From positions 1 through 46,484 of the IMG/VR virus record IMGVR_UViG_3300021792_000001: a DNA stretch of 46,484 nucleotides. One strand, written 5' to 3'. The DNA is from a virus. The position numbers and the translations under genes were made by a program. A model generated the notes under the pieces. That model was not told the DNA's origin, made no database searches, and saw nothing but the letters and a program-made list of their open reading frames with translations. Positions 13,001 through 40,033 of the stretch are shown here, piece after piece. The number at the start of each line of letters is the position of its first letter. Position 1 is the stretch's first letter.

Positions 13001-13158
13001 CTTGATCCCCTTACATTTCTCTGAATTTGCCCAATAACTGATTGGGTGTCAGGAGGTTCAGAACGGCTGTAAGAAACCGCGAGTAGCTTTCCCCGAAGGT
13101 GTTTTATGACTACTGCCCTCCCGACGCAACAGGAGTGCTGCCCATAAATTTTGGGCAT
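12997..13158 (-). CDS. 53-codon leader frame over the structured RNA
   Basis: ATG 13158 directly follows the terminator T run, and the stop overlaps the ATG of the next gene. Two cysteines and many basic residues are present, with no recognisable fold. No Shine-Dalgarno other than T-rich sequence precedes it, so translation is doubtful. If translated, it would couple the leader to the downstream genes, as icd couples to ant in P1. The underlying RNA structure explains the sequence better. Confidence 0.35.
   Translation of the reverse strand: MPKIYGQHSCCVGRAVVIKHLRGKLLAVSYSRSEPPDTQSVIGQIQRNVRGSR
13048..13125 (-). ncRNA. Three-way-junction leader RNA of the rha cassette
   Basis: The closing stem pairs GTCGGGAGG (13125-13117) with CCTCCTGAC (13056-13048): 9 pairs, one wobble. 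Hairpin A (13113-13083) pairs GTAGT with GCTAC around a CCTTCGGG core. Hairpin B (13079-13064) pairs CGGT with GCCG. The same topology, the same upstream CCTGTT box and the same offset from an upstream terminator occur at 37907-37986, with different stem sequences. Confidence 0.6.
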
Positions 13159-34620: not shown

Positions 34621-34974
34621 CTACCTCCCCAGCAGTGCTTTAACGTCATTGATACGTGCTCGACCGATCATCTTGCGCTCAAACGCTTCCTTGTCCGTGA
34701 GCTTTTCGCGGCCTGTTGCATCCCTTGGAGCCACAACGTCACGCTTGAATCGCTCGCCACGCAGATAAGCCTTACAGACTTCCTTGTACTGCTTCGCAAA
34801 GCCGCGCTTACCCGCTCCGGTATCACGGCGCCTTAAAGCAGAGAAACCGACTCGTCTTGCTGCCTCAAATACAACGTCATGACTTGGTTTCCAGTGCGCG
34901 ACATCATGAGAATGGTTTGCCGCTTCGTGATACGCAGCCTCAACAGACGGGAATTCATCAAACAAATCACTCAT
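34621..34974 (-). CDS. Small unknown protein after P (117 aa)
   Basis: It overlaps the P-like stop by 4 bp. A helical N-terminus (FDEFPSVEAAYHEAANHSHD) is followed by a very basic C-terminal half (RRRDTGAGKRGFAKQYKEVCKAYLRGERFKRD), suggesting nucleic-acid binding. In lambda, the ren/nin genes follow P. No family recognised. Confidence 0.55.
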   Translation of the reverse strand: MSDLFDEFPSVEAAYHEAANHSHDVAHWKPSHDVVFEAARRVGFSALRRRDTGAGKRGFAKQYKEVCKAYLRGERFKRDVVAPRDATGREKLTDKEAFERKMIGRARINDVKALLGR

Positions 34975-35669
34975 GCGGCACCTCCACGCAACATAGCGCG
35001 CAATGCTGCGGCTTTTTTACCGCCAGCCTCTCGATCAGCGGCACGCTCTTCTTTGGACATGCGCTTGTAGCGGCTTGCTGAGTTCTGGTCTTCCAACATA
35101 TCGCCCGTCTTTACAACATGACGTTTGGTCAATGGCTTGCCTGCTGCAATATCCGTTACCACTCCACCATAAGCGCGGTTAAACGCTTGCTTGGCTTCCT
35201 TCTCCTGCATGCGGTAGAAATCAAACGAACCAATGCGGTGAACCGCTTCCCAAATCGCGTTATTGGACCAGTCTTTATCAATCGCCAGTCGAAACGCCGT
35301 CGCCACATCAGGCAGATTGAAATCACCAGGGCGCGGTGCGCACATCTTCGCAAACTCACCCAGCGTTGGCGGCCAAGCCAAATTGTTATGAACACGCTCA
35401 TTCAGTGCACGGTTAACGCGCTCGTAACCAAACTCAACCAACGTACGCCCCCAAACCATCGCCGTTGCAGTTAACTGGCGATCAGCGCCCAGCAACTCAC
35501 CGTACTGACTCGACCAACGACTGCCGAACATGCTACTCATCCCCGCCCAGATATTCGCCGAGAACGTCTTGATATCCTCCGTCGGCGTATTGGCTTGTTT
35601 CTGGTTGGCTGAGTAATTCGTTGGCGTCGGCAATTGCACGCTCTGCAGCAGAGAGTTTACGTGTTGCAT
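34971..35669 (-). CDS. P: Replication protein P-like, helicase loader (232 aa)
   Basis: Length equals lambda P (233 aa). It has AMVWGRTLVEFGYERVNRALN near residue 70, WPPTLGEFAKMC near 99 and a basic C-terminal tail. It should bring host DnaB to the O-like protein at the origin. ATG 35669 has GGAGG 8 nt upstream. The first 137 nt overlap the O-like gene in another frame, a longer overlap than usual for lambda. Confidence 0.8.
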   Translation of the reverse strand: MQHVNSLLQSVQLPTPTNYSANQKQANTPTEDIKTFSANIWAGMSSMFGSRWSSQYGELLGADRQLTATAMVWGRTLVEFGYERVNRALNERVHNNLAWPPTLGEFAKMCAPRPGDFNLPDVATAFRLAIDKDWSNNAIWEAVHRIGSFDFYRMQEKEAKQAFNRAYGGVVTDIAAGKPLTKRHVVKTGDMLEDQNSASRYKRMSKEERAADREAGGKKAAALRAMLRGGAA

Positions 35670-36543
35670 GGTGGTGACCTCCGTGGGATGGCTGAGCTTG
35701 GCTAGTTTTTAGGGTTGGCAGGTGTTCATCGTTCCATTTTTCTTCGTTAATCCAGCGCACGCAGTGTGGCTGCCATTGAGCCTCGTTAGGGTTCTGAGCG
35801 TACAACGCCCCCCACTGCTCGGCTTTGGTGATGATGTTTTGCAGGTAGGCCAACGCCTCGTTGTAATTGTCTGCCAGCTTGAGTTTTAAGAATTTCTCCT
35901 TAGCTGGTTTCTTGCTACCACGACGACCGTAGCCAGCCCAGACGTGTTCAAACGCTTTGGCTAACAACTCGCGTTTGGCTTTGGCATCGAATTTTTGATC
36001 AACCACCACCGGAGCGGTTTCGTTCGATTCGACCGAATCGGACAAATGATCTAATGATTCACTGACTGATTCATTGACTGGTTCTAAAGTGACTGGTTCT
36101 GGGTGCATCTGATTCACCCCACCTAGTGCATCAGATTCACTAGGGGGTGCATCTGGTTCACTAGGGGATGCATCTGGTTCACTAGGGGATGCATCTGGTT
36201 CACTAGGGGATGCATCTGGTTCACTAGGTAATAAATACCCGATAATGTCGCCTTCTTCGTTATAAATTGGCTTCAATAGATGAAAATTCAGTTTGTAAAC
36301 GTTAGACGAATTTCCCTTAACCCCCTTGCGAACTGTCTTAGTCAATACGCCCGTTTTTTCCAAGAACTTGATATGCAATTGCACAGCACGCTTGCTGATT
36401 TCACACTGTTCAGCAATATAGTGATAACTAGGCCAGCACTCCCCTTGATCGCTTGCATTGTCTGCCAGCTTTAACAGTACGAGTTTACGCAGAGGGTTAC
36501 CCACCTTCGTTTTCATGGCTTTTACCATGAGATTCATACTCAT
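35533..36543 (-). CDS. O: Replication initiator O-like (336 aa), contains the origin
   Basis: Residues 12-80 form a winged-helix DNA-binding domain (NPLRKLVLLKLADNASDQGECWPSY, EISKRAVQLHIKFLE). A low-complexity SEPDASP repeat (about 105-140) is encoded by 21-bp iterons, so the origin lies inside the gene as in lambda O. A C-terminal domain (AFEHVWAGYGRRGSKKPAKEKF) follows. It overlaps the upstream gene by 4 bp and P by 137 bp. It binds its own iterons and recruits P-DnaB. Confidence 0.85.
   Translation of the reverse strand: MSMNLMVKAMKTKVGNPLRKLVLLKLADNASDQGECWPSYHYIAEQCEISKRAVQLHIKFLEKTGVLTKTVRKGVKGNSSNVYKLNFHLLKPIYNEEGDIIGYLLPSEPDASPSEPDASPSEPDASPSEPDAPPSESDALGGVNQMHPEPVTLEPVNESVSESLDHLSDSVESNETAPVVVDQKFDAKAKRELLAKAFEHVWAGYGRRGSKKPAKEKFLKLKLADNYNEALAYLQNIITKAEQWGALYAQNPNEAQWQPHCVRWINEEKWNDEHLPTLKTSQAQPSHGGHHHATRKLSAAERAIADANELLSQPETSQYADGGYQDVLGEYLGGDE
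36104..36231. repeat. ori: Replication origin iterons, 21-bp tandem repeats
   Basis: Copies of a 21-bp unit with TGCATCTGGTTCACTAGG begin at 36127, 36148, 36169, 36190 and 36211; an extra divergent copy starts at 36104. Each carries the GATGCATC palindrome in the middle copies. An AT-rich stretch follows at 36229-36300. This is the arrangement of the lambda origin inside gene O. Confidence 0.85.
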
Positions 36544-37141: not shown

Positions 37142-37557
37142 GCCTCACCCCCAAAGCCATACGCCTGCATCATAAGCTTACGAGCACGCTCTGTGCGGAT
37201 TGCCAGCAGGTGTCGATCTGCCTTGGCGAACACTTGCTTAGGCGTGGCAGTCTTGGTGAACACCATCATGATCTTTAAAAACTCATACGCGGAATAAACA
37301 TGCAGATCATTGTCATACAAATTTTTAACGCGCTGAACGTAGCATGGCGTATTTTTCCATGGCTCATTTGGTCGCATATGAACACGTCCAAATCGGCTAG
37401 ATTTTAGGTGATCACAGTGTTTTAGATCACAATTGTGCAGAATCGATGACTCGATCGTTAATACATGCTCAGGCAAACAAAGCTCACCACAGTGCGGGAG
37501 AATGCGCAGATACTGATCTGCGCGTTTTGATAATTTTTTAAGGATGCGTAGATTCAT
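37138..37557 (-). CDS. Unknown early protein (139 aa)
   Basis: ATG 37557 follows GGAGGTG and overlaps the upstream stop (ATGA). Basic protein with several cysteines and histidines (LPHCGELCLPEHV, NCDLKHCDH), possibly a zinc-binding fold, then a basic helical C-terminus. It resembles small Vibrio phage regulators only in general character. Confidence 0.55.
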   Translation of the reverse strand: MNLRILKKLSKRADQYLRILPHCGELCLPEHVLTIESSILHNCDLKHCDHLKSSRFGRVHMRPNEPWKNTPCYVQRVKNLYDNDLHVYSAYEFLKIMMVFTKTATPKQVFAKADRHLLAIRTERARKLMMQAYGFGGEA

Positions 37558-37844
37558 ACCCACACCTCCATCACGTCACCGGATAGAGAAGGATTTTGCA
37601 GGGCGTAGACGCTGCATTTTGACTTGCGACCATTGTAAAACGGCGCGATATAACCTTCGCGCTGTAGCTCATCGATAGCCACGCGAACCTTATCAACGGA
37701 AATCTTGGATAATTCAGAAATTTCCTGTTCGTCCAACAGGATGCGAGGGGAACCGCCGAATACAGGCAGTTGTTTGATAGCGTTGCGAACTCGCTTAGCG
37801 TAAACGCTTAGGCGATCGTCAACCAATAGGCGTAATTGTGCCAT
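37554..37844 (-). CDS. Winged-helix protein after the Ash-like leader (96 aa)
   Basis: ATG 37844 with GGAG 8 nt upstream is the best start. Residues 40-75 form a winged-helix (DEQEISELSKISVDKVRVAIDELQREGYI). An in-frame extension reaches back to ATG 38120, but that part is dominated by an RNA fold and a terminator and reads like Ash/Icd-type frames. The gene is the first of the tightly overlapped early operon. It may be a Cro-like or replication regulator. Confidence 0.68.
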   Translation of the reverse strand: MAQLRLLVDDRLSVYAKRVRNAIKQLPVFGGSPRILLDEQEISELSKISVDKVRVAIDELQREGYIAPFYNGRKSKCSVYALQNPSLSGDVMEVWV

Positions 37845-37906
37845 GGTGAGTCTCCGAATGTGTTTTTTCAGGGACCACCAAATCGAAGTGCGAATTTCAA
37901 TAGGGT

Positions 37907-37986
37907 GGTCGGTCAAGTGGAGTTTCGCACTATCGGCACACAAACGGAAAGCCGACCTACCCGAAGGTAGCTCCACCCAACCGACC
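37907..37986 (-). ncRNA. Three-way-junction RNA in the Ash-like leader
   Basis: The closing stem pairs 37986-37971 with 37922-37907: 16 consecutive pairs, 13 Watson-Crick and 3 G-U, no bulge. Hairpin A, CTACC-TTCG-GGTAG (37970-37957), starts at the next base. Hairpin B, GTCGGC/GCCGAT with a 13-nt loop (37956-37932), follows without linker. A 9-nt single strand (37931-37923) leads back to the closing stem. A second copy with the same topology lies at 13048-13125. Confidence 0.75.
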
Positions 37987-38018
37987 ATAACAGGTAGGCA
38001 CAGGCGTGCAGCAGACAT

Positions 38019-38043
38019 AAAAAAACCGCTATTAAGGGCGGTT
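38019..38043 (-). terminator. Intrinsic terminator in the early operon leader
   Basis: AACCGC-CCTTAATA-GCGGTT followed by a T run on the minus strand, inside the Ash-like frame. It comes 33 nt before the three-way-junction RNA and stops early transcription before the replication genes unless it is suppressed. Confidence 0.85.
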
Positions 38044-38169
38044 CGTCTGCCCGTTTGTGAATTATCCGGAGTGCGAGTCCAGGCTGCCGATTTTGCGGCA
38101 ACGGTTAAATTATTGCTCATTGCTCTGTACCTGTCAAAAATTTTACAGATACATCGATTTATTAGTCTC

Positions 38170-38475
38170 TTACTTTTGATTGGCCTCTTGCCGATCGATG
38201 TTTCTTAGTTGTCCGAATCGCTGGTCTATGTCTTTCACCAGCTTACAAAGTTCAGGGTCGCCCCAATCTATGATTTCACACTTTGCTAAAAAAGCCCCTT
38301 GCGGGGCAATGTCGTAATGGCGTTCATCTAACAAAAGGGTCGATCTCAAATGCGGGTCAGTCGTTCCACTATCAAGACAACCATCATGGCCGCACTTACT
38401 AAAGTGTGATAGCTTCACAAGGACATCCCCCAATACTCTGCTCGGGCGCTTCACAGCGTGCCGACTAAGAGCCAT
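38170..38475 (-). CDS. Small early protein whose start lies in the C4-like repeat (101 aa)
   Basis: ATG 38475 lies in the 53-bp repeat, so residues 1-12 are shared with the short leader peptide of the other repeat copy. The rest has CGHDGC near residue 33 and an acidic C-terminus. A strong terminator (38288-38307) sits inside the frame, encoding PQGAFLA. This makes the protein-coding status uncertain; the region may serve chiefly as C4-like antisense and target RNA. Confidence 0.45.
   Translation of the reverse strand: MALSRHAVKRPSRVLGDVLVKLSHFSKCGHDGCLDSGTTDPHLRSTLLLDERHYDIAPQGAFLAKCEIIDWGDPELCKLVKDIDQRFGQLRNIDRQEANQK
38288..38307 (-). terminator. Intrinsic terminator downstream of the C4-like targets
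   Basis: GCCCC-GCAA-GGGGC followed by six T on the minus strand, about 50 nt after the second complementary target. It is the first of two terminators that early leftward transcription must pass. Confidence 0.85.
38357..38385 (-). promoter_or_regulatory. Candidate targets of the C4-like antisense RNA
   Basis: Minus-strand GATGGTTGT (38385-38377) is perfectly complementary to ACAACCATC of the repeat (38489-38481). CGACTGA (38363-38357) pairs with TTAGTCG (38468-38462) with one wobble. Two short targets in the same order as the antisense segments match the a'/b' and a''/b'' scheme of phage C4 RNA. Confidence 0.6.
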
Positions 38476-38492
38476 CTAACGATGGTTGTTTA
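38440..38492 (-). ncRNA. C4-like antisense RNA element, copy 1 (53-bp repeat)
   Basis: On the minus strand it has two short hairpins: CCATC-GTTA-GATGG, and a CGCT/AGCG stem. The sequence is identical to 38997-39049. Its 5' half and the linker between the hairpins are complementary to targets about 100 nt downstream. It overlaps the start codon of the 38475 frame. Confidence 0.65.
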
Positions 38493-38539
38493 TCCAACAC
38501 TAAGCTGGATGTATTTCTTACCCCACAAGGAGGTTTTGC

Positions 38540-38803
38540 ATGATCATAGAGATCTACACAAAAAATAACGCGCTTACTCAAACCATCGAATCGGTAAAAG
38601 GCCCTATTCCGAGGTTTGGCGAATTATTAACCCTGCAACAAGATGGTGGCTATTTGCAGGGTGTTGAAACTGTCATCGTCAGAGAGGTAGATTACACACT
38701 CAAAGACAATGAGCTAACGCCAGTCATTCGATGCCAGCCATACTTTGGCGAGCACACCAGATCATTTCTGGTTAAAGAGTTCGGTTGGAACGGGGATAGC
38801 TGA
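38540..38803 (+). CDS. Small phage protein between the repeat copies (87 aa)
   Basis: ATG 38540 follows AAGGAGG by 7 nt. The small beta-rich chain (PIPRFGELLTLQQDG, VREVDYTLKDNELTPVIRC) resembles the 42157 minus-strand gene in strand pattern (PRVGDSV...), suggesting one small-protein family. It is transcribed against the early leader and overlaps the 38762 gene tail to tail by 42 bp. Confidence 0.65.
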   Translation: MIIEIYTKNNALTQTIESVKGPIPRFGELLTLQQDGGYLQGVETVIVREVDYTLKDNELTPVIRCQPYFGEHTRSFLVKEFGWNGDS

Positions 38804-38974
38804 TAGGTTTTTCACCAGACCATCTATCATTTCGCCGGTTGCATCCAACTGGCGAAACACCTCCGTATCACGTAAACCAGCATCGGAAAGCTTGGCTGTC
38901 GTACTCCAAAGGTTCGCGCTTAGACCCTCTAAGCTCACTTGAACATTGGCGACGCTTGGTTGTGGTTTACTCAT
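38762..38974 (-). CDS. Small early protein after the second C4-like copy (70 aa)
   Basis: ATG 38974 follows AAGGAGC by 6 nt. Amphipathic helical sequence (SLEGLSANLWSTTAKLSDAGLRDTEVFRQLD). It is preceded by a 15-codon leader peptide from the 53-bp repeat. Its 3' end overlaps the convergent plus-strand gene. Function unknown; the place resembles kil/cro-type small early genes. Confidence 0.6.
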   Translation of the reverse strand: MSKPQPSVANVQVSLEGLSANLWSTTAKLSDAGLRDTEVFRQLDATGEMIDGLVKNLSAIPVPTELFNQK

Positions 38975-38984
38975 ATCGTGCTCC

Positions 38985-39032
38985 TTAACTTGTTCCGCTC
39001 GGGCGCTTCACAGCGTGCCGACTAAGAGCCAT
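38985..39032 (-). CDS. 15-codon leader peptide in the second repeat
   Basis: Starts in the repeat and ends just before the ribosome binding site of the 70-aa gene. The first 12 codons equal those of the 38475 frame. Stop codons appear at once after divergence, so translation, if any, is of a short leader. Confidence 0.4.
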   Translation of the reverse strand: MALSRHAVKRPSGTS

Positions 39033-39049
39033 CTAACGATGGTTGTTTA
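38997..39049 (-). ncRNA. C4-like antisense RNA element, copy 2 (53-bp repeat)
   Basis: Identical to 38440-38492 at all 53 positions. Here the shared ATG (39032) leads only to a 15-codon peptide (MALSRHAVKRPSGTS) ending at 38985. No matching target pair lies downstream, so this copy may give a free antisense RNA acting in trans on copy 1 transcripts. Confidence 0.62.
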
Positions 39050-39280
39050 CAGCGGATTACCTAAAACAGTAATTCTATACAAAATACTGATTGCCAATTT
39101 CGCTGAATATTTTCTAATTTTAAACACCTAATTAACTTTTTGTAAATCTTTTCAGTTGAATTAATTGATGCTTTTTACAGATTACACAAAATCATGTGCA
39201 TTACACACAACACAATGTGTGATGAGCTAAATCAAAAGTTCACTCACTGCACATACAACAAATAAGGCTGACACCGCTAT
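39050..39280. promoter_or_regulatory. Repressor/early operator region
   Basis: AT-rich intergenic DNA between the leftward early leader and the rightward repressor-like gene. A partial dyad CACACA-ACACAA-TGTGTG with flanking CAT/ATG lies at about 39203-39226, and ACAGATTACACA lies at 39176-39187. Both divergent promoters should be here, with operators for the repressor-like protein. I could not assign -10/-35 boxes confidently. Confidence 0.55.
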
Positions 39281-40033
39281 ATGCCAACCATTGAACCCCT
39301 TGATAAAGAAGTGAAGGCAAGCACTGCTGGTGCATGTTCGCTTGCCATGCAACGTATTATCAATGCATCACGCTATGAACGTAGCGAGGTGGCGGAGTAC
39401 TTAGGATTGTCGCTTGTTGCACTAGGCAGCCGAATGCGCGGTAGCGTGTCATTCTCGCTTGAAGAGGCCGTGATGATCTGCAAACTTGCGGAGATCCCCC
39501 TGGCTGATGCACTTAAAATTGGTGAAATGAGCCAAGAAGAGTTTGAAAACGCGTGGATCTACCAATGGCGGAGACGCAATTTTGCCAAGCATGTTGCGCA
39601 TCTAGTGGCTGACAAGGGATTAAATCACAGAGAAATCGCGGACATCTGTGGCTATAGCCAAAGCTGGCTAAGCACTGTCTTGAGTGGCAACCGAAAACTA
39701 ACTGGGCGAATTGCTCGCGTTATCGAAAAACGCCTAGAGCTTCCAGAAGATTTTCTTGATCGTAAGCCGCTAACACCACCCAAAGCCGCACAGATCGACG
39801 GCTCATTACTGGCTAAGACAGCCGCTCAACTGGTGGCGACCGTGCGCGGCGAAGGCTTCGAGATCGACAGTGATTTATTTAATATTTACGTAACGGCTAT
39901 AGTTCAACTTTATAATGCCCGTATCGCTACACGGGGCGGATATGACCCTGAAACCGATGCAGCCCAATTCCAGTCAGTTTATGACCAATTAGTACTACAG
40001 TTGAAAATGAAAGAAGGGCTTTGGAAGTATTAG
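39281..40033 (+). CDS. Repressor-like protein with two HTH domains, no S24 peptidase (250 aa)
   Basis: Two helix-turn-helix regions are visible: residues 20-65 (ERSEVAEYLGLSLVALGSRMRG) and 105-150 (NHREIADICGYSQSWLSTVLSGNRKLTGRIARVIEKRLELP). The C-terminal 80 residues are helical and contain no Ser/Lys S24 (LexA/CI) catalytic pattern, so it cannot self-cleave in SOS. It diverges from the early leftward transcript and is the best candidate for the lysogeny regulator. Prophage induction would therefore need an antirepressor or RNA control. Confidence 0.75.
   Translation: MPTIEPLDKEVKASTAGACSLAMQRIINASRYERSEVAEYLGLSLVALGSRMRGSVSFSLEEAVMICKLAEIPLADALKIGEMSQEEFENAWIYQWRRRNFAKHVAHLVADKGLNHREIADICGYSQSWLSTVLSGNRKLTGRIARVIEKRLELPEDFLDRKPLTPPKAAQIDGSLLAKTAAQLVATVRGEGFEIDSDLFNIYVTAIVQLYNARIATRGGYDPETDAAQFQSVYDQLVLQLKMKEGLWKY

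Follow-up and report, generated by a model that had tools for sequence, protein, structure and literature searches.

Layout of the early region

The window, which is the whole stretch of DNA analyzed here, comprises all 46,484 bp of a virus record in IMG/VR; it carries terminase, portal, tape measure, and integrase genes and has a tRNA-Val gene close to one end. Its putative switch region sits between a divergent HTH repressor-like gene and the replication genes (Table 1). Read leftward, it presents a candidate outer promoter, leader copy 1, leader copy 2, ORF2 with terminator T1, and an inner promoter, followed by isrK ending in terminator T2, C4, a nested gene, small genes, and the O-like and P-like genes. 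A match to the Rfam family sRNA-Xcc1 was also found among the structural genes (13040–13125, minus strand; 58.2 bits, cut-off 53).

Table 1. Features of the putative switch region and replication genes, in window coordinates
Feature	Position	Strand	Remarks
Divergent repressor-like gene	39281–40033	+	Two HTH regions; no S24 domain
Candidate outer early promoter (PLL-like)	39117–39146	-	TTTACA-18-TAAAAT; consensus match only
Leader element, copy 1	38997–39049	-	Hairpin CCATC/GATGG and hairpin CGCU-GUGA-AGCG
ORF1	38762–38974	-	70 aa, between the two leader copies; no family
87-aa ORF	38540–38803	+	Good Shine-Dalgarno; antisense to early operon; in cassette
Leader element, copy 2	38442–38492	-	Directly ahead of ORF2
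ORF2	38170–38475	-	Contains T1; 101 aa from ATG, 82 aa from GTG 38418
Terminator T1	38288–38307	-	Stem 38307–38294, U tract 38293–38288; -10.0 kcal/mol
Inner promoter (PLE-like)	38109–38137	-	TTGACA-17-AATAAT
Eta-like ORF	37554–38120	-	188 aa; runs through T2 and C4 into nested gene
isrK RNA (P4 seqA homologue)	38019–38102	-	RF01394, 50.7 bits, cut-off 50
C4 targets in isrK	a1 38080–38068, b1 38059–38049	-	
Terminator T2	38019–38044	-	3′ end of isrK; AACCGC-loop-GCGGTT and U7 tract; -7.2 kcal/mol
C4 antisense RNA	37901–37992	-	RF01695, 62.8 bits, cut-off 45
C4 loops	b′ about 37947–37939, a′ about 37931–37924	-	
Downstream C4 target	37852–37894	-	a2 37894–37887 (TTCGCACT), b2 37862–37852
Nested winged-helix gene	37554–37844	-	96 aa; at the place of P4 kil
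O-like replication initiation gene	35533–36543	-	
P-like helicase loader gene	34971–35669	-	

Nine loci were compared, namely the window and eight Marinomonas relatives that have the same layout. The first relatives came from M. atlantica, M. ostreistagni, M. piezotolerans, and one MAG, and the others from four more genomes of the genus; two of the relatives are also in IMG/VR. Relatives found by aligning the protein of the nested gene all belonged to Marinomonas, and the GenBank phage collection yielded no direct DNA or protein relative. A homologue of the repressor occupies the corresponding place in loci L003, L033, and L002. Domain matches of the window repressor comprised HTH regions only, in agreement with the initial annotation of a repressor lacking an S24 peptidase domain.

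The inner promoter is present in all nine loci, with a score of 13.0 in eight of them and 10.9 in L007 (maximum of 500 shuffles, 12.5). The outer promoter candidate scored 11.6 in the window, where the 95% point of shuffles was 11.0, and the best candidates in the relatives mostly scored near the null.

Hairpins with U tracts were confirmed at both places near 38.29 and 38.02 kb where terminators had been annotated, each inside an open frame (T1 in ORF2, T2 in the 188-aa ORF) and ahead of every replication gene. On the minus strand, T1 reads GCCCC-GCAA-GGGGC followed by TTTTTT. A strict terminator scan of the whole window returned 19 sites versus 1–9 in six first-order Markov sequences, while a laxer scan of the region gave 14 versus 10.8 ± 3.8 expected, not above chance. 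Since T1 and T2 rank in the middle of the strict sites, strength alone does not make them special; they are set apart by conservation, T1 being found at the corresponding upstream place and T2 at the isrK end in 9/9 loci. The inner promoter lies between the two, and therefore its transcripts meet T2 only, while T1 can act only on outer-promoter transcripts. The earlier statement that leftward transcripts meet both terminators thus holds for those started farther upstream and not for those of the inner promoter.

isrK, C4, and their pairing targets

Both isrK and C4 exceeded their Rfam cut-offs in the window and in most relatives. The isrK match did so narrowly, and its 3′ end is the intrinsic terminator T2. 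The c4-a1b1 model (RF03163) scored 21.0 bits, below its cut-off of 46.7; the a1b1 pairing itself is conserved. Of the "C4-like elements" named in the initial annotation, the C4 RNA proved genuine, and the second element is to be read as isrK/c4-a1b1.

In phages P1 and P7, C4 regulates icd/ant. As in those phages, the C4 described here has a fold with loops a′ and b′ and two target copies, a1b1 and a2b2, with b′ over the ribosome-binding site (PMC5320573); unlike in P1/P7, C4 is itself contained in an open frame and has a nested winged-helix gene as its target. In the window, loop b′ (CCGTTTGTG) forms nine perfect pairs with b1 (CACAAACGG), and loop a′ (AGTGCGAA) forms eight with a2 (TTCGCACT). 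The b2 segment overlies the Shine-Dalgarno sequence of the nested gene, to which loop b′ is imperfectly matched in the window; in most loci, 7–11 loop-b′ bases perfectly complement this region, with letters that differ among phages. Loop and target co-vary, with TCCTTTTTTGC accompanying GCAAAAAAGGA in L018 and CTCCGTGAT accompanying ATCACGGAG in L007, and this covariation of C4 loops with two targets, one of them over the ribosome-binding site, extends over the nine loci.

Between a C4 and the targets of its own locus, pairing averaged -33.9 kcal/mol for a1b1 (permuted, -23.7; 1 in 100,000 permutations) and -32.1 kcal/mol for a2b2 (permuted, -24.9; none in 100,000), figures that overstate independence given the relatedness of the loci. 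When the window was scanned by free energy for C4 targets, no clear extra site emerged and several sites ranked above a1b1 (z -3.7); as the scan fails to single out a1b1, the pairing rests on covariation. The a′ loops fall into classes (window/L010/L019; L007/L008/L009/L017/L020; L018) that, by inspection, do not follow protein similarity, a pattern to be expected if immunity specificities are exchangeable. The 50-bp repeats were ruled out as a C4 target, since phages whose C4 letters differ carry an identical repeat.

By inspection, other Marinomonas C4 loci (L080–L087) are followed by genes that are KilA-N-like or by other short genes, and in several of these loci a C4 loop is, by eye, complementary to the ribosome-binding site there. 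At least 11 C4 loci each occur in several genomes of the order (e.g., G191, G213, G252, G290, G327, and G355).

The GCCC in the 5′ arm of T2 is able to pair with the GGGC of b1, and in L009 the corresponding sequences differ yet can still pair. For transcripts ending before the 3′ arm of T2, the probability of this pairing was about 1 in eight loci and 0.53 in L009. Such an antiterminator was rejected as an equilibrium structure, T2 winning in the full transcript at 9/9 loci; it would form only before the 3′ arm is made, and C4 bound to b1 is predicted to remove this competitor of T2.

Open frames, ORF2, and the leader element

The start codon of the eta-like frame sits inside the inner promoter. 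In 8/9 loci, the window included, this frame has no stop through isrK, T2, and C4, while the other frames have 3–10 stops; it is broken in L010. The ATG-to-ATG distances of 267, 270, 273, 276, and 285 are each a multiple of three. In the frame-specific part, changes are spread evenly over the codon positions (767:732:805) and the peptide is not conserved, which argues that openness is kept rather than the peptide. As a control, none of eight antirepressor-type C4 loci of the same genus was open in the gene's frame (2–5 stops each); the hypergeometric probability for 8/9 versus 0/8 is ~4 in 10,000, an overstatement in view of the kinship among the loci. Among 30 C4 loci sampled more widely from the order, 24 had an open frame, compared with 15.0 expected. 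The layout of a P4-type eta/kil unit, with an open frame that begins upstream of the start of the inner transcript, crosses the terminator and the immunity RNA, and has the nested gene in frame, was found in 8/9 loci. The Ash protein family (Pfam PF10554) gave no match to the window eta-like frame, and the L017 homologue of this frame scored 23.1 bits against Phage_ASH, short of the cut-off (26). For the nested gene, the codon-position changes are 985:692:1667. A fold search with a model of its protein, itself only moderately confident, pointed to a winged helix, with no match at E ≤ 0.001.

ORF2 of five relatives is a genuine coding gene (~105 aa) that resembles winged-helix genes and has an excess of third-position changes; one of them gave weak TrmB/MarR matches. 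The T1 sequence falls within the stretch that encodes xAFLA or similar. The window group has structured RNA in place of the initial part of ORF2, and L009 has a stop shortly ahead of T1. The simplest reading of this layout is that ribosomes on ORF2 probably carry transcription past T1.

The leader element (~50 bp) occurs twice in the window and once in L002/L009, L003/L007, and L008. Its core, CGCTGTGAAGCG, is identical in 9/9 loci, while the flanking stems change in a compensating manner, from CCATC/GATGG to CCATG/CATGG and with several different outer stems. A conserved leader peptide, MALSRHAVKRP, was rejected, as an inserted base in L003 breaks its frame and keeps the hairpins. To judge from these sequence patterns, the element is RNA-like rather than peptide-coding.

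A cassette of ~555 bp (38493–39049) between the leader copies holds ORF1 and the 87-aa plus-strand ORF, of which two other Marinomonas genomes have weak homologues. The single leader copy of L008 matches copy 1 on its upstream side and copy 2 on its downstream side; therefore, the cassette looks like an insertion with duplication. In a family of phage contigs (L024, L025, L028, L030, L032, L036, L039, and L040), apparently Pseudomonas phages, the same leader hairpin core, CCCGCTGTGAAGCGCCA, has compensating outer stems, and in L025 it lies inside a short Ash-like frame.

A putative RNA immunity switch and its alternatives

The sequence shows these parts, their order, the covariation, and the frame conservation, and the logic of the arrangement has a precedent in P4. 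There, a constitutive promoter inside eta gives transcripts that terminate quickly by means of CI and seqA, whereas the transcript of the upstream late promoter is translated across the terminator, so that only the inner promoter is attenuated (PMC10111431). IsrK is described as a structural homologue of seqA (PMC4825925). Like P4 (PMC10111431), the window has a promoter inside an eta-type frame, followed by a seqA-like element and a CI-like RNA, and a nested C-terminal gene in the same frame; as in P4, the upstream-promoter transcript would be translated across the terminator.

We consider it probable that a P4-type RNA immunity switch heads the early operon of this marine prophage, a full-size temperate phage of Marinomonas, in which C4, a small antisense RNA, probably decides if transcription and translation go on. 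In this scheme, how the promoters are used, how the RNA is processed, what C4 does, and that readthrough depends on ribosomes are predictions from sequence. In the lysogen, the inner-promoter transcript would begin with isrK; a fraction would stop at T2 to give short isrK, and the rest would be processed to C4. Pairing of C4 with a1/b1 of nascent isrK would favor termination at T2, its pairing with a2/b2, where ribosomes bind ahead of the nested gene, would block translation of that gene, and the replication genes would be off. Release of the outer promoter beside the divergent repressor would yield a transcript that carries the eta-like start codon, a codon missing from the inner transcript. 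Ribosomes would then cross T2 and C4, so that neither the terminator nor the antisense RNA could form on the outer transcript, and transcription would enter the replication genes. Translation of ORF2 would probably do likewise for T1.

P4-type C4/CI immunity is a known kind of system, of which the arrangement in this full-size phage represents a variant. While P4 is a satellite, the phage in the window is of lambda type and full size, and it has terminase, portal, and tape measure genes as well as O/P replication genes. The main immunity terminator of P4 is Rho-dependent, whereas T2 is intrinsic. Unlike in P4, an additional intrinsic terminator, T1, lies in an upstream ORF, the nested gene is of the winged-helix type, and the phage's own divergent HTH repressor gene adjoins. 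The Gifsy-1 isrK locus has an intrinsic terminator with partial readthrough and controls translation of the next gene, as predicted here, and a processed RNA just downstream (PMC4825925), STnc1160 in Gifsy-1 and C4 here, where processing is presumed. Gifsy-1 controls orf45/anrP and antQ, with short IsrK activating in trans (PMC4825925), while in the window the RNA heads a replication operon.

Homology and covariation support attenuation of the inner promoter, and the proposal of P4-type termination control in the initial annotation is upheld for T2 by isrK, the CI homologue C4, the covarying targets, and the eta-like frame. For T1, which lies upstream of the inner promoter, a place in the C4 circuit is not supported; no C4-type target was seen by eye in its leader. 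The further proposal that attenuation replaces a promoter block in keeping lysogeny is not established, given the divergent HTH repressor and the upstream promoter candidate, and is unsupported by P4 itself, in which the upstream promoter reads through and only the inner one is attenuated (PMC10111431).

The repressor alone could keep lysogeny by blocking the outer promoter, with isrK and C4 in a secondary role that silences the nested gene or excludes incoming phages that are related. The repressor gene beside an outer promoter candidate in several relatives would fit this idea, as would the C4-isrK units that elsewhere in the genus precede KilA-N-like genes without an eta-like frame, and the C4 recognition letters, whose few classes could act as immunity groups. 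However, a strong, conserved inner promoter lies downstream of the repressor region and, unless termination or a block of translation intervened, would run into the replication genes; we regard the idea as unlikely.

Readthrough of T1 and T2 could also depend on antitermination by the leader RNA, with its repeated CGCU-GUGA-AGCG hairpin, instead of translation. From its position and shape, a nut- or put-like function of the leader element is possible, in line with the invariant core amid compensating stems, the hairpins spared in L003, and a boxA-like GCTCTTA stretch in four loci. This stretch is, however, absent in the remaining relatives, and no N-type arginine-rich protein was recognized by inspection. 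The core, with 20 viral matches, several in one Pseudomonas-like phage family, was rejected as a widespread element, as 3 matches in 759 genomes versus 1 in the control indicate no general enrichment. We hold leader-driven readthrough to be decidedly improbable. A combined scheme, in which b1 and the T2 arm make a kinetic attenuator, C4 frees T2, and the duplicated leader hairpin is a new antitermination element, is in our estimation improbable; if true, the two terminators would be under two different RNA controls.

We give hardly any credence to the notion that the open frames are coincidental, RNA structure excluding stops and T1 and T2 being plain terminators that limit leaky transcription: the lack of codon-position bias in the frame-specific part would suit it, but the frame survives indels of several lengths in 8/9 loci, the antirepressor-type loci hold stops in that frame within the same RNA folds, and the wider C4 sample is open beyond expectation.

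A P4-type switch at this locus would mean that the eta/kil design, known from satellites, also serves the replication operon in full-size temperate phages beyond the Enterobacteria. The natural C4 specificity classes (CGCAC, TACCAC, and CACCAC types) would predict which phages are mutually immune, and the antirepressor-type C4 loci would offer a within-genus control that separates the translation-dependent from the antisense part of the switch.
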